Positions 482-49,213 of a DNA stretch of 64,000 nucleotides are shown here, piece after piece. A program made the position numbers and the translations under genes. Source of the stretch: Diacronema lutheri (lineage: Eukaryota > Haptophyta > Pavlovophyceae > Pavlovales > Pavlovaceae). A model generated the notes under the pieces. The model was not told where the DNA came from. It worked only from the letters and a program-made list of their open reading frames with translations, and did not search any database. How positions within the stretch are numbered: position 1 is the stretch's first letter; every line of letters starts with the position of its first letter. The stretch covers positions 248,001 through 312,000 of the forward strand of contig JAGTXO010000009.1 in assembly GCA_019448385.1 (NCBI GenBank), written 5' to 3'.

Positions 482-3400
482 CACGCGCGCAACGCGAGCT
501 TGGCGGGCGCGGCGCTGCTCGTGCTGCACACGCCGGCGGACGATCCGGCGCGCGCGCTCGGACTCGTGGCGACGCGCTCGCGCGCGCCGTCGACGGGCGC
601 GCCGCGCGACGCACACAGGGCGATGGTGCAGCGGTTGGACGTGCTGACGGGCGCGATCGCCGCGGCGCGAGGCGCGCCGCCGCTCGAGCTCGAGCTCGCG
701 CTCGCGCCCGAGCCGCAGAGCGCGTGCAACGCGCGTGCGGCCGCGCTGCTCTGCCTGCAGGCCGTCGCGGACGCGAGCGACCGTCCCGCCGCTGAGGACG
801 CGCTGGCCGCGCTCGACGACGCGCGCGGCATCGACCGGCACTGCCACGCCGTCCGGCAGCAGATCGAGGCGAAGCTCGCGTGGCGGCGCGCCGACGGCGC
901 CGTATGCGCCGACGGCGCCGACGGCGCGCCCGCGCTCGCGCCTGCCGCCGCACCGCCGGCGTGTGCGCCGGCGCACGCTGCCGGCGAGGCGGCAGTCGAC
1001 CAGGCGATCGTCACGCGGGTGCGCGACGCGCTGCGCGCGTGGGCGACGACTGGCACCGCGCCCAGCGCGGCGGTGCTCGACGACGCCTGCGCCGCGTACA
1101 CGGCGCGCGCACGCGCGCGCAAGGACGCGCGCACGGCGCTGGACCCGACGCGCGCGGCCGAGCTGCTCGCCGCGGCCGCGCGCGGCGGAGCCGACGGGGC
1201 GGATGCCGCGCGCGCGCTGCTCGGCGGCACGCCGCGCCTGCTCGTCGTGCTCCTCTGCGTGCCCGTCGCCGCGCCGTCCGGCGAGCCGCCGCGCCCGGTC
1301 GGGCTGCTCGTCGCCGACCGGCCGACGGACGACTCGCGCCCGGCCGCGCTCGTGCGCTACGACTTTGCGCCGCTCGACGCGGACGTGGCCGTCGCGGTCG
1401 GCGCGCATGCCGTCGCGCTGGCCACTGCGATCTGGCCGCTGCTCGCGGCCGAGGGGGAGCCGCAGCCATCGCCCGTCGTGCGCTCGCAGCCGCGCGGCGG
1501 CGACGATGGCGCGCGTGCGCTCGCAACGTTCGCGTGCCTCGACGCGCTGATGACCGCCAGCGTCGGCGCGCACGGCCTCGCGGGCGGCGCGGGCATGCTG
1601 CCCGCGCTGGTCGCGCGAGGCGCCGCGGCCACCCAGCGCGAGCGGCAGCTGCGCGCGGCCGCCGAGAGGCTGGGCGGCACGGTCGCTGGGTGGCCGGACA
1701 CGGGCGCGAGCGCGGCGGGCGCGAGCGTCGACGAGGAGGCGCGCACGTACGAGGTCGAGACGGTCGTCGGCGAGCGCCGCAAGGCGGGCAAGAGGGTGAC
1801 GTTCCAGTTCCGGATCAGGTGGCTGGGCAACGACGAGAGCGCCGACACGTGGGAGCCTGAGGCCAACGTGAGCAGCGACCTCGTCGCCCAGTTCCGCACG
1901 ACGCGCGACGAGCAGAAGCGGCGCGCGGGCGGATCGGGCAGCGGCAGCGGCGGCGCGGGCGCGGCGTCGGCATTGGCGTCGGCGCCGCTTCGCGCGCACG
2001 GCGTGTCGGGCGCCGCGGGCAAGCGCGCCGCGGCGGGTGCCGCCGCGAGCGCGCGCGACGCCGCGCGCGCGCGCGCGCCGAGCGTTCCCCGCGCGCGCGG
2101 CGTCGAGAGCGCGCGCGTGGACGAGCCCGCTGCGCCGAGCGCGCGCGCCGCCGGCGGCGCGACGGCGCGCACGCGCGGCAGCGTGCTCCCGGGCTTCGTG
2201 GTCAAGCGCTCGACGCTCAACGCGGGGCCGCAGGCGGTGACGGCGCAGCCCGGTGCGCGGAAGGAGCTGCGGCGCATCGCGGCGGCCGTGCACAAGCTCA
2301 CGACACAGGCGTACCGCGTCATCAACAAGGTGGTGCGCGACGAGGCTGCGGTGGCGAGCGCGCAGGCCGCCGGCGCGGCGTCGGGCGGCCCGTCGACCAG
2401 CGTGCACACGTCGACCACGATGGACACGGGAACCGTCCGTGCGATCTTCTCGGCCATCGGCTGGCACCAGGACGAGAGCACGTACGGTGCAGCGCCCCGA
2501 GGCAAGCCCGCCGAGCAAGCCGCCGCGCAGACCAAGGCGGTGACGGCGCGCGCCGTCGGAGAGATGGCCGAGGGCGTCCAGCCCGTCTGCGCGGTGGGCC
2601 TCGCGAGCATCCTCGGTGAGGAGGCGACGCAGGTGTCCACCGCGTGCCTGATGCACCCATCGCGCGTCGTGAACGGGCTGCTCCGCGACGTCGTCCGCGC
2701 GGCAGTCGAGCGCGACGAGGCGCTCGTCGCGCTGCCCGAGATGCAGCGAAACGCGCGCGTGCGCGAGCTGTGCGAGCGGCTGCTGCGCGGCGACGTGGCG
2801 GGCGCGCGCGTCGGCTGCCCCGCCGCGCTCGACCGCCACCTGCCCGACATGGTCCTCCACAAGATCGACTACGAGTGCGCGCCCACGCCCAGGTGGAATT
2901 GCGACCGGCACACGACGCGCTACTTCCTCGTGCAGATCCGCAACCTGCAGCACGTGGCCGAGGGGCAGGCGCTGCTCTGCCGGCTCGCGCACATCCACAC
3001 GCAGCTGACCGGACGGCCGCCGCGGTACAATGTGGCGCCACTGCGCACGCACAATGTGCGCGCGAGGCGCGGCTGCCGCTGCCGCCACCGTGCGCCCAAG
3101 CGCGCGCGCCGCCGCCGTGCGCGCCGCCCCGCGGCCAGGTTGGTCACGCGCCCGCGCGCTCGCACGCCGCGCGCTGCGCGCAGGTGCCGCGCAACGTGCG
3201 CCTCACCGCGAACGCTATCTGGGAGACGCTCCCGGACGACGAGCGCAAAGAGCTGCGCGCGCGGCTCAAGGCGCTGGACCTGCGCGACCACGATGGCGAG
3301 CCGATCAAGTGGACCGCTCAAGGCGGCTCGTTTGTCCCGCCAATGTCGGACGTGCGCGTCAGGTACGCGGTCTTCGCGACGCGCTTCGACATCTCCAACC

Positions 3401-4902
3401 GCGTCTTCGACTACGCCGGGCGCGAGCGGCCGCCGGCCGACCTGCCGTGGCACGCGCGGCGCTCGTGGGTTGGCCTCGCGCCGCTGCCGCGCGTGCCGCT
3501 CCCGGGCCGGCAGCCCGTCAAGTCGGTGGTGACGGATGGCGTCGCCGTGCACGCCGTCGGGACCGTCCTCGTGCCGAAGGCGCAGGCGCCGGCCGGCAGC
3601 TCGAGCGTCCTGCACCGCTGGCGCCGGCCGGACGGGCGCATCGCCGTCGCGCTCGGCTCTGAGCTGCAGCGGGCGATTGATGAGGAGGAGGCGGTCGTCG
3701 TCGCGGCCGACCCGAACATGGGCAACATCACCACCTACTCTGCGCACGTCGGGCGGGCGGCCGTCTGGCGGCAGTTCACGCAGCGCGCGCGCGCGCGCGC
3801 CGCGGGCTTTGCGCGCGAGACGGCCAAGACCAACGCGGCGCGGCGGCGCGTGCGCAAGGACGGGCGCGGCGAGGAGTTTAGCGTGGAGGCGGACGAGGCG
3901 CGGCTTGGCGAGGCGCACAGCGCCAAGGTGCTCGGCGAGGGCGAGTTCCTCGCCTTCCACCGCGAGAGCGCGCGGGTGCGCGAGCGCGCCGCCGAGCACG
4001 TGTACGACGCGCCGGCGCGCCGGAAGGAGCGCTGGCGGCGCGACAGCGGCGGGCGGTCCAACGCGGCGCGCGTCGCCGAGGCGCTCATCGCGGCGCACTG
4101 CGTCGACGGCGTGACGCGCGACCGGCTGCTCGTGTGTGTGGGCAAGTGGCTGCACGACCACAAGGGCGCGCAGCCCAAGGGCGCGCCGCCCGCCTTCCAG
4201 GTGGGGCTGCTGCGCGAGCTGCGGCGGCGCGGCGTCGCGGCCGTCTTCGTGCCCGAGCCGTACACGTCGATGCACTGCTCGATGCCGCGGCTCGCCAAGG
4301 GCGGCAGGCTGCAGCGCTGCGGCGCGGAGCTCGCGCAGGACCCGCGCCTGCCCGTGGCAAAGGGCGGCACGCGCACGGTGCACGCGCTCGTCATCTGCCC
4401 GGCGTGCAACGGCGGCAAGAAGCCAGTGCACCGCGACTACGACGCCGCGCGCAACATCTTCTACGACGTGCACGACATTGCGGCGCACGCGGCCGGGCGC
4501 GACACCACATCGACGCCTGAGCGCTTTGCCCTCGTGCTCGCCTGGTGGGCGCGCGGCGAGGTGTGGGAGCGTGAGGAGCGCATGGTGCACGGCGAGGGCG
4601 ACGACTGCGACGACGAGGGCGACGGCGACGACGAGGGCGGCGGCGACGACGACGACGACGACGGCAGCGGCGACGGCGGCGGCGGCGAGGGCGACACTGA
4701 CGGCGACGGCGACGGAGGCGGCGGCGGCGACGACGACGATGACGGCGGGGGAGGCGGCGGCGGCGACGGCGGTGGCGACGACGGCGGCGGGCGCGGCGGC
4801 GGTGGCGGCGGCGGCTCTCGCGCCCGCACCCCCGCCCGCGGAGCTGCCAGCGCCAGTGCCGGCGGCGGCAGCGCGCGCGGGCCGAAGCGCGGCCGGCGTT
4901 GA
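482..4902 (+). CDS. Chromodomain-Fanzor fusion (TnpB-like RuvC nuclease)
   Basis: Exons 482-3055 and 3184-4902 are joined across a 128-nt phase-0 GT-AG intron (AAT|GTGCGCG ... GCGCAG|GTG). A chromodomain lies near 1749-1920 (YEVETVVGERRKAGK, then the aromatic-cage context TWEPEANVSSDL). A helical region follows (RKELRRIAAAVHKLTTQAYR, about 2260-2340), resembling the TnpB/Fanzor N-terminal segment. The C-terminal half has the RuvC signature: RuvC-I Asp in VVAADPNMGN (3709), an acidic residue just before the zinc ribbon in VPEPYTSMHCS (4255), four ribbon Cys (4276, 4318, 4395, 4405), and RuvC-III in HRDYDAARNI (Asp at 4435). That order is known from Fanzor proteins, RNA-guided relatives of IS605 TnpB. 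The tail is an Asp/Gly-rich low-complexity stretch ending in a basic, NLS-like KRGRR. Fanzor identity is well supported. Activity and RNA guidance are inferred. The 5' end is unresolved. Confidence 0.85.
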
Positions 4903-5352
4903 CGCACGGCCGAGCCACGCAGCGGTCGACGCTTTGCGGGCTCTGCCCAGATCGCGCGCGGCTGGCGACGCGTGCCGCGCGCGGCACGCCCGTGCACGCC
5001 GCCGCCCACGGCCGAGCGCGCCGCACCAGACGGCCCGCTCCAACCGCCGTGCGGATCACGGACGCTCGCTACGGCTCGTCGGCGCGCGTCACCTGCGCCG
5101 GCGGCCAGGGCGCCGTCTGCTCCGGCCTCGTCGCGAGCAGCCCGACCGCTGCTCGCCGCCCGCACGCCGCCGCAGCAACGCTGCGCGTCGTGCTCCCCCG
5201 CTCGCCAAGCGAAGAGCTCCCTCACAAGGACGTCCTTCCGAACGGCCCGCGCTGCACTCGGGGCGCTCAACCGTGCCCCTGATCGGATTTGGCTTGACCA
5301 TCTATACGCACGCCGCTTCCGCCCGGCGCCCGCCCGTCGCCGAAAGCGAGGC
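4903..5352. other. 3' flank of the Fanzor gene, no gene seen
   Basis: No coding pattern on either strand. It holds a 20-bp perfect palindrome 67 bp after the Fanzor stop. In this family the guide (omega) RNA is usually encoded next to or overlapping the nuclease gene, so this flank is the natural place to look. I could not identify element ends or a target-site duplication by eye. Confidence 0.4.
4970..4989. repeat. 20-bp perfect palindrome downstream of Fanzor
   Basis: GCGTGCCGCGCGCGGCACGC is its own reverse complement. It could fold into a hairpin in the Fanzor 3' UTR or be part of a structured guide RNA. In DNA this rich in CGCG, short palindromes also arise by chance. Confidence 0.5.
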
Positions 5353-6613: not shown

Positions 6614-7072
6614 TCACGCGCTCGCCGGTGCTCCCTCCTCGTCCGGCTCCTCATCAAGCTGGAACTCGTCGCACCCATTGTCGAAGATGGGGTCCTCCTC
6701 CTCATTGACCTCGATGTCCTCGTCGACGAGGCCAAAGGCATACCTTGAGGAGTTGTGCAGGCCATGGTTGATGCACGGCACCCAATCGATGCCCTTCTCC
6801 TTGGCGAGGTCGATGCAGCACTGGCGCACGTTCGCGCCCGAGTCGGTCGCGATAGACGCGATGTCCGAGTTAGTGAGGCCAAACTCTTGGAAGCGAGACT
6901 CGAGGTGCTCCTTGATCCCGACAGCTGTGTGCGCGCCGAAAAACTTGACGACACCCAGCTTGAGCGTCGCGAGCTCGCCAGTCTGCGGATCGGCAAAGCG
7001 CAGCGCCAACGAACTGTATGCGTCGCCGGAGTGGCGCGCGGTCCACATGTCCGTCGTCGCGTGCGCCCACGC
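6614..7072 (-). pseudogene. hAT-superfamily transposase fragment
   Basis: The minus strand encodes the first part of a hAT RNase-H-like domain: ATTDMWTARHSGDAYSSLAL (first catalytic Asp), FFGAHTAVGIKEHLESRF, SIATDSGANVRQCC (second Asp), then WVPCINHGLHN and an acidic stretch EVNEEEDPIFDN. The T-x-D-x-W-T, TDSGANV and W-x-P-C-x-x-H motifs are characteristic of hAT elements. The N-terminal BED finger, third acidic residue and dimerisation domain are missing, so this is a remnant that cannot work alone. Confidence 0.8.
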
Positions 7073-7074
7073 CA

Positions 7075-7271
7075 GGCCGCTGTACGAGCACTATGCGAAG
7101 CGCCTGCGCGAGTTCACCAAGGACGACGAGCTCTGCAAGAAGATCCCCGCGCTCTCGCAGGGCGCGCGCCGCAAGTTGCTGCTGGAGATCGAGAACCTGT
7201 GGGCGGATGACGAGGACGATGTGCCCGCAGCTGATGCGCCGCCCGAGAGTCCGAGTGCAGAGGCCGAGTGA
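7075..7271 (+). pseudogene. Helical acidic ORF fragment abutting the hAT remnant in opposite orientation
   Basis: The plus strand carries RPLYEHYAKRLREFTKDDEL, then LLLEIENLWADDEDDVP and a stop at 7269-7271. It has amphipathic-helix character like the helical insertion of hAT transposases, but no diagnostic motif. It begins within a few bases of where the minus-strand hAT frame begins, which suggests an inversion breakpoint near 7073. Confidence 0.35.

Positions 7272-9803: not shown

Positions 9804-9847
<44 letters not shown>
9804..9847. repeat. Poly-C tract (44 bp)
   Basis: An uninterrupted run of C directly joined to the left end of the dispersed repeat. The other repeat copy also starts with a short C run (CCCCCCC), so an insertion preference for, or carriage of, C-rich ends is possible. 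Such runs are prone to assembly length errors. Confidence 0.9.
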
Positions 9848-9849
<2 letters not shown>

Positions 9850-10097
9850 AATCCGCCATCCAATTCTACTGGGCGTCAATCACTCGAGCCCTTCTCGTCG
9901 CCCGCATTCCGGGGTCGGACCCCCCGTCGGCCCGGCTCGGGTCCTCCGTCCGCCGCGCCCGCTCGACCCCGAATTCTACTCAAAATCGACCGGACAGGGG
10001 GGGTTCCAGTCCCGGATTCGTCTTGAACCTCGCTCCGACCCCTCGGGCGCTGATCGGCTGGCCTTAAACCCGTGATTGTACGGCCCGGGTCGTACTC
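9844..10097. repeat. Dispersed repeat, copy 1 (about 250 bp)
   Basis: Nearly the same sequence recurs at 48984-49213, same orientation: CGGAATCCGCCAT, CAATTCTACTGGGCGTCAAT, CCCGCATTCCGGGGTCGGAC, GAATTCTACTCAAAATCG and CTCGCTCCGACCCCTCGGGC are shared, with small indels towards the right. The two ATTCTACT blocks are about 118 bp apart. It has no terminal inverted repeats and no coding capacity. It resembles a SINE or other short non-autonomous element. Here it overlaps the 3' end of the coiled-coil gene. Confidence 0.85.
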
Positions 10098-10824
10098 CTG
10101 GCCGGACCGGCCCGGACCGCGCCATATATAGCCCACTCCGATAGCCGGCAAACTTGCGGTGGTGCAGCGGCTGGGAAAGGCGGTTGTAGAGGGTCTCGAG
10201 ATTGCCCTTCAAGACGTTCGAGTGCTCAGGGCAGCCAAGGTCGCGCGCAATGGTAGCGGCAGCGGCGCCGAGTTTGTCTGCAGCTGCGTCCAGCACATGT
10301 TCCTTGTAGAACCGGGCCCACGCCACCGTCGCGACGAATTTCTTGCCGTGTTCGGGGGGATACTTGGCGCGGAGCGCGATCTCCATCAGCATGCGCGGCT
10401 GAAGCACGGCTTCGTAGTTGGCCAATTTGAAAGTCGTCTCCACGAGCTCCTTTTCGACCAGCAGCTTCTCCGCGGCGAGCGTGTTCTTCTCCGACTTCTC
10501 TGCCTCCTTTTGCGCGGCGAGCGTGTTCTTCTCCCCTGCCAACTTCTCCGCCTCCCTGTCCTTCTCCACATTCTCCGCCCAAAGCTCCAGGTACCGCCTC
10601 CCGTACTCGTCGCCGGCAACCTTGGCGAGGTTGAATGCGTATTGAACCTCGTCGGCCGCGGAGCGCGGCGAGGTCAACGTGCTCGCCATGCGCACGGGCC
10701 CAACGCGTCCAATGCTCATGAAGCGCACGCGCGTGAAGCGCCAAGGACTTACAAAGCGGAGCGCGTCTGTGCGCCCCGCAACGGCGCGCACCACCAGCAA
10801 CAGGGCCGCCATCGTCGTGGCCAT
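9976..10824 (-). CDS. Coiled-coil protein with N-terminal hydrophobic or targeting segment
   Basis: A single-exon frame of 282 aa starts at an ATG (10824). The N-terminus (MATTMAALLLVVRAVAGRTD) is a short hydrophobic stretch followed by Arg-rich sequence, consistent with a signal or mitochondrial presequence. Residues about 60-135 form a Lys/Glu-rich coiled coil with a repeated EKNTLAAQK/EKNTLAAEK unit. A folded-looking region follows (MEIALRAKYPPEHGKKFVAT, LKGNLETLYNRLSQPLHHR). The last roughly 40 residues are encoded inside the dispersed repeat, so the true stop may differ or the repeat may have supplied one. I recognise no family. It is head to head with the TTLL gene. Confidence 0.65.
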   Translation of the reverse strand: MATTMAALLLVVRAVAGRTDALRFVSPWRFTRVRFMSIGRVGPVRMASTLTSPRSAADEVQYAFNLAKVAGDEYGRRYLELWAENVEKDREAEKLAGEKNTLAAQKEAEKSEKNTLAAEKLLVEKELVETTFKLANYEAVLQPRMLMEIALRAKYPPEHGKKFVATVAWARFYKEHVLDAAADKLGAAAATIARDLGCPEHSNVLKGNLETLYNRLSQPLHHRKFAGYRSGLYMARSGPVRPGVRPGPYNHGFKASRSAPEGSERGSRRIRDWNPPCPVDFE

Positions 10825-46910: not shown

Positions 46911-47753
46911 GCGGCCAGCATCGCGGCGCTTGCCACGCTGGCGGCGGGTGGCGGTGCGCTTCGCGGCGGCGGCAGGGGGCTGCGACGCGGCGGGGAGGGC
47001 GGCGGCCCGCTGGCGGCGGGCGTCGCGCTCTGCAGCGGCGGCGGGCGGCTTGGCGACGTGGCAGGCGGCGGCTCGGGGGTGGCGGTCGTCGCCGACGATC
47101 TTCGGGCCTCGGCGTGCGCGTGCGCGTCGGCCGGTGGTGTGGTAGACGGCGGCCAGGGGGTTGACGGCGGCCAGGTGGTGTGGTTGACGGCGGCCGGTGG
47201 TGTGGTTGACGGCGGCCAGGGGGGGGGGGGGGGGGGGGGGGGGGGGGGCGGGGGGTTGACGGCGGCCATCGGCGAGCGCGCGACCGCCGTATCGCCGCGC
47301 TCCCGACCGCACGCGCCCGGGCCGCACGGATGCGGGCCCGCCGGGGGGGGGGGGGGGGGGGGGGGGGGGTCCCCTTCGCGCGCGCGTTCCGAACGTGCGC
47401 GGACGGCCGTTGGCTTCGCGCCACTTCTCAACCGGCCTCTGCGCGCCAACGGACCGGTCCCGCCAAGCCCCGCCGAGCGTCGTCTCAGAGGCGGTCGGTG
47501 TGGTACGCCGCGCGCATCGTCAGCGCCGCGGCGTCGAGCTCGGCGGGCGAGGGCGCGTACGCGGCGCCGCTCAGCGCCCGTCCGCGCCACCCCTCGTCGC
47601 GATTGCCGTCTCCGTGCGCGCAGGCGGCTTCGTGAAAAAAAAAAAAAAAAAAGGAGGTGCATTCGCGCGCTGCATCGTCCGATACTCGGTCCGACGCGCT
47701 CCTCCTCTCCGGACGGACGGCACGCCCAAGATCTCGGGGCACGCTCGCACAAC
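46911..47753. other. Repeat-rich, non-genic
   Basis: Contains GGTTGACGGCGGCCAG/GGTGGTGTGGTTGACGGC repeats (47140-47220), two poly-G tracts (47219-47248 and 47343-47369) and an A15 run near 47635-47651. The long open frames across it have no codon pattern and are read as artefacts. Confidence 0.6.
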
Positions 47754-48744
47754 ATGTACCCACAGAACGTCTCCGAGCTGCTGCCCGACGTGATCTTCGG
47801 CGACGACCTGCTCGTCGCCCGGCACTACCGCGTGCGCATCCTGCGGCGCATCGCCCACCGCCGCGATGCGGCCGAGGCCAACTTTTGGCTCGACGGCGGG
47901 CCCGCCGACTTGGTCGTTGGCGCGTGCATGTGCGGCCGCCGGCCGGGTCTGCGCGCTCAAGTGCGCGGGCCGGCTCGTGCGCGGCGCCCGGATCCTCGCG
48001 CTGCTGCGCAAGAATGTCGCGCTCGGCACGTGCCGCGCGCACCTCATGGGCCACATGCTCCAGCGCATCGTCGGCGACGGCGGCGTCGCGCGGCTGCTGC
48101 AGCTGGTTGCAGCTCGTTCGCGTGGATCACGACACGCTCAACGCCGAACACCAGGCCTTGGAAGCACAGCATGGCTCCGGCCAAATCATGCGACGGCATG
48201 TGCGCGCGCGCCGATGCGCTCTCCAAGGACCTCGTACGGGCGCACGTGCACGCTTACAAGCTCGATGGCTCTCTAAGGTGGTGCAGTGAGCGCCTCCGTG
48301 AGAGTGACTCTTTCAACGGAGCGCTCAAGAACCTGATCACGCGGTGCAGCATGAGATGTGCTGGCTCCACGCCGAGATATCGTCGCTCGTTGCGGGTTCG
48401 CCCGAGGTTTACGCGAACGACAGCGAGGCCACCGACTTCAAGGAGCACGGCGTGTGCGTCGAGTTCGATGTCTTCAACCGCGACGGGGTCGAGGGCGCGC
48501 CCGTGCCCGCGACCGCGCCCACGAAGGCAGAGCCGGGCATCGAGTTCAAGTGCACCGCGCCCGCACAGGCAGAGCCGGGCAGCGAGCCCGAGTGAGCCAA
48601 CGTGCCGCCGAACTCGCCCATGCTCTCGTCGGTCGACAGCCAGGCCACCGAGTACAAGACCTCCTGCGCGAACTCACGTGCTCGCCACCTGCAACGCCTC
48701 GAGTTTACGCACGCGTTCGAGTCTGTGCTGGCCGAGGTCGCTTA
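47754..48744 (+). pseudogene. Frame-broken remnant of an unknown protein gene
   Basis: Coding-like pieces follow one another in changing frames with no space for introns: MYPQNVSELLPDVIFGDDLL and ANFWLDGGPADLVVG (frame 3), CALKCAGRLVRGARILALLR (frame 1), VDHDTLNAEHQALEAQHG (frame 2), DALSKDLVRAHVHAYKLDGS (frame 3), HAVQHEMCWLHAEISSLVAG and ATDFKEHGVCVEFDVFN (frame 2), then past an in-frame TGA (48593), SVDSQATEYKTSCANSRARH to a TAG at 48742. At least four shifts and one stop make a pseudogene likely. I do not recognise the ancestor; it could be an old mobile-element ORF, given the repeats around it. Confidence 0.5.
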
Positions 48745-48983
48745 GTCAAAGCGCGCCAAGGTTCCGGCCACCGGCGCATCGAGGCGCTGGCTGCGCAACA
48801 CGGCGGTGCGCAACACCCGCAGCTCGGCCAAGGGCAAGTTGCGCGCCGGCGCAGCGCACGGTATGCCGCGGCGAGCTCAGTCGCGAAGACTGTCCGAGGC
48901 CGCACCCTCCACGGGGTGCACGCGCACTCGGCGCGGTCCGGTCAGTCAGAGCGCCTCAGCTTGCGCGATGCCAGTTGCGACCC

Positions 48984-49213
48984 CCCCGGAATCCGCCATT
49001 CAATTCTACTGGGCGTCAATCACCCAAGCCCTTCCGGTCGCCCGCATTCCGGGGTCGGACCCTCCGTCGGCCCGGCTCGGGCGTTCCGTCCGCCGCGCCC
49101 GCTCGACCCCGAATTCTACTCAAAATCGGCCGGTCAGGGGGTTCTCAGTCCTAGGCTCGTCCTAAGCCTCGCTCCGACCCCTCGGGCGGACTTAAACCCT
49201 CGAGGGTCGTACT
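48984..49213. repeat. Dispersed repeat, copy 2
   Basis: Second copy of the element at 9844-10097, same strand, clearly similar with small indels. It begins 150 bp beyond the SHMT stop codon, on the 3' side of that minus-strand gene. Confidence 0.85.

Follow-up and report, generated by a model that had tools for sequence, protein, structure and literature searches.

A chromodomain and a Fanzor-type nuclease in one spliced frame at the end of a 31-kb mobile element of the alga Diacronema lutheri

Chromodomains are readers of methyl-lysine on histone H3, and the integrases of chromoviruses (Ty3/gypsy) bear a chromodomain at their C-terminus. Here we describe a chromodomain that precedes, in one spliced reading frame, a nuclease of the Fanzor type in the marine haptophyte alga Diacronema lutheri; the frame lies at 491 to 4902 of a 64,000-nucleotide stretch of contig JAGTXO010000009.1 (the window, to which unprefixed positions refer), in a decayed copy of a 31-kb mobile element. 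One of the genes of this element encodes a helicase of the PIF1 type, a kind of helicase that Helitron-superfamily elements also have. Fanzor1 proteins have been described as cargo of many DNA transposons, among them a Helitron2 of a green alga, and Fanzor and TnpB proteins as sharing the pattern D-X(125,275)-[TS][TS]-XX-C4-X(5,50)-RD (PMC3627910). Published Fanzors are RNA-guided nucleases with a guide RNA at the transposon end; in SpuFz1, the Fanzor1 of Spizellomyces punctatus, the residues are D383, N385, E541 and D606 and the adjacent motif is CATA (PMC10432273). The chromodomain is also recorded as an accessory domain of long terminal repeat elements (PMC6338049).

The D. lutheri protein shares with SpuFz1 the D-X-N RuvC motif, the E before the zinc ribbon, the four-cysteine (C4) ribbon and the RD, its carriage by a mobile element and a 3' non-coding end beside the element boundary, but differs in that a chromodomain and thousands of residues precede it in frame and in that the element measures 31 kb, against about 2.1 kb for the SpuFz1 locus (PMC10432273). 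With the Chlamydomonas Helitron2 elements that carry Fanzor1 (CRe-1, 2 and 3) it has in common an algal DNA element, a Fanzor1 and a 3' hairpin, whereas here no Rep domain was matched in the frames scanned, the termini are different, a YqaJ-type nuclease and a chromodomain are present, and the length is 31 kb. Like the chromovirus integrases, it fuses a chromodomain to a mobile-element enzyme, although the partner is a TnpB-type nuclease, with reverse transcriptase and integrase unmatched by Pfam in the frames scanned. The sequence-only reading from which this work started knew of no description of such a pairing, and a search of the open-access literature, which leaves most subscription papers outside it, likewise gave no report of a Fanzor-chromodomain or TnpB-chromodomain fusion; PMC6338049 mentions Fanzor and chromodomain in unrelated passages. 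Within these open-access limits, a Fanzor joined to a chromodomain looks undescribed.

The chromodomain-Fanzor gene

Frame 2 of the window is open from base 2 until a stop at 3530; in frame 1, the open stretch is 2620 to 4902. Third-position guanine plus cytosine (G+C) content, 0.94 in both exons, indicates that the coding sequence runs in frame 2 from about 500 as far as 3055 and in frame 1 from 3184 onwards, with the switch near 3056-3184. The upstream exon (exon 2; 491 to 3055, forward strand, as are all parts of the gene) contains the tail of a longer polyprotein, the chromodomain, a linker and the N-terminal Fanzor part; position 491 is the start of the stretch that aligns codon for codon with the copy on contig C71, and this alignment is free of gaps over 855 codons. 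The sequence-only reading gave the feature as 1740 to 4902; the coding frame in fact extends further upstream than 1740, and the mobile element reaches to 5307. For comparison with other copies, the D. lutheri genome (43,492,796 bases in 103 contigs) was searched with P0003, a database relative with 95% identity to the window copy and 100% to two copies in the same genome. The best 76 of 458 candidates had 99-100% identity, and the best 30 of these 76 were retrieved as loci, 29 of which reach the chromodomain.

The chromodomain (1748 to 1897; residues 583-632 when the frame is counted from base 2) matches PF00385 with 36.6 bits (E 4.2e-9), and that of the C71 copy with 47.6 bits, the curated cut-off being 25.1; matches of the PF00385 family were found in 0 of 14 control genomes. 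Its top sequence matches in the PDB are the chromodomains of CDYL, Clr4 and HP1. Alignment to these, read codon by codon, gives Y 1748, W 1820 and N 1829 at the positions that form the aromatic cage in HP1. The cage reads Y/W/Y in all 29 retrieved loci covering the chromodomain; in the window copy, N 1829 stands where the retrieved high-copy loci have Y, which leaves the three-residue cage incomplete. An Ala/Gly/Arg-rich linker of about 270 bases follows in the same frame (1922 to 2191, from the translation). The N-terminal part of the Fanzor-type protein, where WED/REC would be expected, is assigned to 2192 to 3055 by position only; it is in the same open frame, starts with GFVVKRST at 2192 and gave no profile match.

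A phase 0 intron of 128 nucleotides with gt..ag borders (3056 to 3183) joins the two exons. It was selected as the best among the seven stop-free gt..ag pairs listed because it yields PLRTHN-VPRNVRL, and a deposited D. lutheri gene model, KFE25_006464 (P0007), joins ...PLRTHN to VPRNVRL... exactly at this splice. The D. lutheri annotation was guided by RNA-seq (PMC8379373). The intron measures 128 nucleotides in 28 of 29 loci and 130 in the C71 copy, a change of length that would not be tolerated in an exon. KFE25_006464 is itself a SAM-domain gene model whose first part is a piece of the element's Fanzor with the same splice; it could be a chimera, a case of exonisation or a mistake in the annotation. 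Open frames come easily at such G+C content, which would suit a view of the chromodomain and Fanzor frames as two distinct genes, or as the product of gene prediction misled by G+C-rich sequence. We regard this explanation as very improbable, given that one uninterrupted frame with third-position G+C of 0.94 takes in the chromodomain together with the first 288 codons of the Fanzor part, that all 29 loci keep exon 2 open between chromodomain and intron, and that the splice matches the gene model, with the 2-nucleotide length difference falling inside the intron.

The downstream exon (exon 3; 3184 to 4902, stop codon 4900-4902) encodes the RuvC and zinc-ribbon half, followed by an acidic, glycine-rich tail. 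Read codon by codon, its motif residues are D 3709, N 3715, E 4255, four cysteines (4276, 4318, 4396 and 4405) and RD 4432-4437, and the spacings (184 residues from D to [TS][TS], 8 from the last Cys to RD) fit the published Fanzor/TnpB pattern. The acidic residue that the sequence-only reading saw ahead of the zinc ribbon is E 4255, before Cys 4276, and its central claim, that a chromodomain and the RuvC and zinc-ribbon landmarks of a Fanzor stand in one spliced frame, is borne out by the PF00385 match, the intron, the full motif and the KFE25_006464 junction. In the window, PF00385 scores above its cut-off, while PF07282 (RuvC/zinc half, frame 1) reaches 23.2 bits, under the cut-off of 26.3, and passes it in the C71 copy with 28.3 bits. 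The RuvC/zinc residues are intact in all 30 retrieved loci, where exon 3 encodes 574 residues with the D, the E, the Cys cluster and RD, and the ratio of non-synonymous to synonymous substitution rates (dN/dS) over the exon 3 core, window copy against C71, is 0.43.

The association is fixed across the genome. All 148 PF07282 matches listed in the genome search exceed the cut-off, and when these and the P0003 matches are considered together, at least 112 of 150 chromodomain matches (the best 150 of 260 candidates) have a Fanzor match beside them at fixed spacing on the same strand; with the PF07282 list alone, 90 of the 150 pair with a listed match. Among the 38 unpaired chromodomains, four have scores unlike those of the family and are possibly chromodomain genes of the host, and the others may have a Fanzor partner beyond the matches listed. 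The chromodomain directly precedes the Fanzor part in 29 of the 29 loci covering it. The sequence-only reading had suggested a search for further copies; such copies are present, and those retrieved keep both cage and catalytic residues. Overall, we are highly confident of this anatomy: one frame, one intron, a fixed association, intact residues in the retrieved copies and constant element ends.

Outside D. lutheri, database searches, which score only the 8000 candidates sharing most words, found only P0005 (46%) and P0006 (39%), both of which start about where the intron ends; a viral-contig search with P0003 gave no relative. The NCBI guided-TnpB model matches P0003 marginally (14 bits, cut-off 100), and a four-sequence profile of the RuvC half matches Cas12f1 in the PDB marginally (E 0.015). 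Another Fanzor-type protein of the same genome (L087:1205-3139, reverse strand) is 25% identical to P0003 over 332 residues (E 1e-7), spanning all motif sites, with a profile-comparison probability of 96% over 184 columns. It has the same motif order as P0003, but no chromodomain was seen by eye in its frame of 1,681 residues; its match to SpuFz1 in the PDB has E 0.38 and ranks after four unrelated matches. Further Fanzor-type families occur in this genome: 31 of the 148 listed PF07282 matches exceed 31.5 bits, and 13 of these share an identical score of 43.9 bits, with frames of up to 1,779 residues.

The 31-kb element

The whole element, as seen in the C71 copy (151839-182853), measures 31,015 bp. 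Its 5' start, TATATA(C/G)GGCGCGG (C71 151839), is common to six copies, as established with probes and flanks. At the 3' boundary, ...CTTGACCATCTATAC is followed by differing flanks in 29 of 29 loci that reach it, the thirtieth being cut by a contig end. The element thus ends TATATA...CTATAC. The bases right after TATA vary among otherwise near-identical copies (C4 reads TATAGAGGG), so part of the element end may be target sequence.

The chromodomain-Fanzor frame is the end of a giant gene that spans 163544-182445 in C71. The 485-residue N-terminal segment from the ATG at 163544 recurs with 100% identity in the best 88 of 218 candidates. The frame of C71 shifts near 167200, at a GC-repeat run, and in C11, C48 and C75 the N-terminal and chromodomain matches share an uninterrupted frame of 6136, 5746 and 5733 residues, respectively; these shared frames make a single polyprotein of some 6,250 residues likely. 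The polyprotein also contains, before the chromodomain, a YqaJ-type nuclease domain (PF09588; 23.3 and 25.6 bits, cut-off 22). Stretches resembling cysteine proteases were seen in it by eye, but those searched against Pfam and the PDB yielded no useful match; we make no claim for them. Upstream lies a PIF1 helicase gene (PF05970; 53.3 and 87.0 bits on two frames sharing it, plus a 2B domain), and 60 of its 92 scored matches lie 8.0-9.0 kb before the N-terminal segment, with 8.34-8.45 kb the commonest distance. A UCH ubiquitin-peptidase match (PF00443, 33.5 bits) is located downstream of the PIF1 gene, at C71 159418-159684 (L044:4418-4684). PIF1, the N-terminal segment and the chromodomain occur together in at least 39 loci, and if each of the 88 listed N-terminal matches stood for a complete copy, the family would account for some 2.7 Mb, or 6% of the assembly. 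The 5' part of the element also includes an inverted repeat of about 870 bases with 91% identity and TACACCC telomere-like repeats within it (C71 about 153836-154707; L049/L044).

The PIF1 helicase, a short G+C-rich hairpin at the 3' end and the known presence of Fanzor1 in a Helitron2 of a green alga (PMC3627910) would fit an ordinary Helitron or Helitron2 with Fanzor1, as described in 2013, to which the chromodomain is a minor addition. We consider this unlikely. No Rep domain was matched by Pfam in the frames scanned, and a six-frame scan of the C71 element for H-x-H gave many matches, none of which was judged a Rep site, with an H-V-H in the coding frame at C71 176562 as a possible candidate. 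The ends read TATATA...CTATAC and not TC...CTRR, and no inverted terminal match of 7 bases or more was found between the first 60 and last 160 bases of the element, unlike the asymmetric inverted repeats of Helitron2. A chromovirus-like retroelement, an idea that arose from the many chromodomain frames of 4,500 residues, was dropped on account of the fixed-spacing Fanzor exon and the lack of a reverse transcriptase match; neither reverse transcriptase nor integrase had a Pfam match in the frames scanned.

Copies coincide with contig ends. Of 11 contig starts chosen for bearing a copy, seven begin within 2 bases of the element 3' end (C1, C5, C6, C10, C12, C83 and C92), two (C26 and C29) have their first base some 9-12 bases within it, and two (C80 and C90) carry 10 and 46 bases of flank. 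Nine other contig ends comprise five with simple telomere-like repeats (e.g. GGGGTA), both ends of C71 with the element 3' end, and two with neither. Targeting of telomeres or subtelomeres was considered and dropped, and the coincidence is read as assembly breaks at a long repeat. Since many contigs begin or end at or near the element 3' end, the element probably causes breaks in the published assembly, which would then contain too few of its copies. The published assembly of strain NIVA-4/92 has 43,502,671 bases in 103 contigs and 73.25% G+C (PMC8379373).

By its sequence, the window copy is a decayed, 5'-truncated remnant. It matches the element in two blocks, from -3214 to -709 (84.0% identity; C71 171486-174000) and from -723 to 5307 (95.9%; C71 176786-182853), so that it has lost 19.6 kb at the 5' end, the PIF1 gene among them, as well as 2.8 kb that contain YqaJ. 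It is probably dead, since the 5' half and the YqaJ segment are gone and one cage residue is changed. The suggestion of the sequence-only reading that the fusion may direct a nuclease to marked chromatin would accordingly apply to its intact relatives and not to the window copy.

Proposed function and its alternatives

Most likely, to judge from its domains and residues, the fusion would be a chromatin-tethered RNA-guided nuclease that helps the element to spread or persist. The C-terminal chromodomain-Fanzor module would act within the polyprotein or once cut from it, binding a guide RNA from the 408-nucleotide 3' non-coding end of the element with the host sequence that flanks ...CCATCTATAC as the guide, and the complex would cut matching DNA beside a TATA-containing motif. 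The chromodomain would hold this complex on methylated-histone chromatin, where silent element copies would lie; cutting and repair would then either duplicate the element or preserve it where it is, or new insertions would be directed to such chromatin. In the window, the 3' non-coding end, the presumed place of the guide RNA, extends from 4903 to 5307 on the forward strand and ends ...CTTGACCATCTATAC, a boundary that is exact across loci; 393 of 403 aligned bases are identical between the window and C71.

Several results weigh against this proposal. The 408-nucleotide 3' end folds little better than shuffled sequence (z -1.18; z -1.29 for its last 200 nucleotides) and is no more conserved than synonymous sites, which together give no positive sign of a guide RNA. 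Between window copy and C71, the chromodomain has six non-synonymous and no synonymous changes, and dN/dS over exon 2 is 1.19, which gives no sign of constraint on the chromodomain. P0005 and P0006 start near the intron end, so no chromodomain is seen in these relatives, and the sequence search of the PDB recovered no solved Fanzor. The AlphaFold model of the RuvC half, made from four sequences, has a mean predicted local distance difference test (pLDDT) score of 44.3; that of the chromodomain with the N-terminal Fanzor part, made from a two-sequence alignment, has 39.7, and its chromodomain stretch shows helices and no barrel strands. Both models are too poor to use, and the second left our confidence unchanged. 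Because the 3' end gives no independent support and the structure models are poor, we separate our confidence in the anatomy from that in the function: a tethered, RNA-guided function we rate as an even call. Taken as a whole, the reading of the feature as the 3' portion of a decayed copy that has lost its 5' part, from an abundant 31-kb element whose giant gene ends in a chromodomain-Fanzor module proposed to be guided and tethered to chromatin, is one that we slightly favour.

The frame extends thousands of residues upstream, so that the two domains form just the end of a polyprotein, and an Ala/Gly/Arg-rich linker lies between them; Fanzor1 proteins are, moreover, already known as DNA-transposon cargo (PMC3627910). 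These points suit an alternative in which a large replicative transposon has captured the Fanzor as cargo, and the chromodomain has a role in a different step, such as bringing the transposition complex to its target, as its counterpart does in chromoviral integrases. The two, neighbours in a polyprotein that is possibly cleaved, would then not cooperate. Set against it are the catalytic residues, intact in 30 of 30 loci, and the chromodomain directly before the Fanzor part in 29 of 29, although the youth of the copies predicts both likewise. We regard this alternative as possible but doubtful. An extension of the proposal of a tethered, guided nuclease, which we put forward only tentatively, is that the element represents a new class of giant eukaryotic transposon, 31 kb long, whose copies have lately multiplied to many dozens in a single alga. 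Such an element might replicate by means of its own PIF1 helicase and YqaJ-type nuclease, and the chromatin-addressed RNA-guided nuclease at the end of its polyprotein of about 6,250 residues might search methylated chromatin and cut empty sites that match its guide, into which repair would then copy the element.

Surroundings of the window copy and significance

Two further relics of the element lie on the reverse strand of the window. One, an older relic (9841 to 10130; 84% identity), corresponds to the 5' terminal 302 bp and ends exactly at the first base of the element, the same base as the 5' start of the copies. The other (47380 to 49188; 88% identity) corresponds to element bases 93-1974. 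Directly upstream of the window copy is a flap-endonuclease-like gene (L009:4345-6342, reverse strand; XPG_N 66.8 bits, XPG_I 95.7 bits), and pieces resembling hAT transposases, recognised by eye, flank the copy at about 1020-3500 of L009 and at 6614-7090 of the window.

Engineers have joined chromatin readers to programmable nucleases. If our proposal is true, the D. lutheri element would hold a natural fusion of this kind, in young, near-identical copies, and would offer a testable case of how eukaryotic RNA-guided nucleases meet chromatin and of what a Fanzor does for its element. The host element is of interest by itself: it is 31 kb long with constant ends, encodes a helicase and a YqaJ-type nuclease with no recognised transposase, and possibly accounts for several per cent of this alga's genome.

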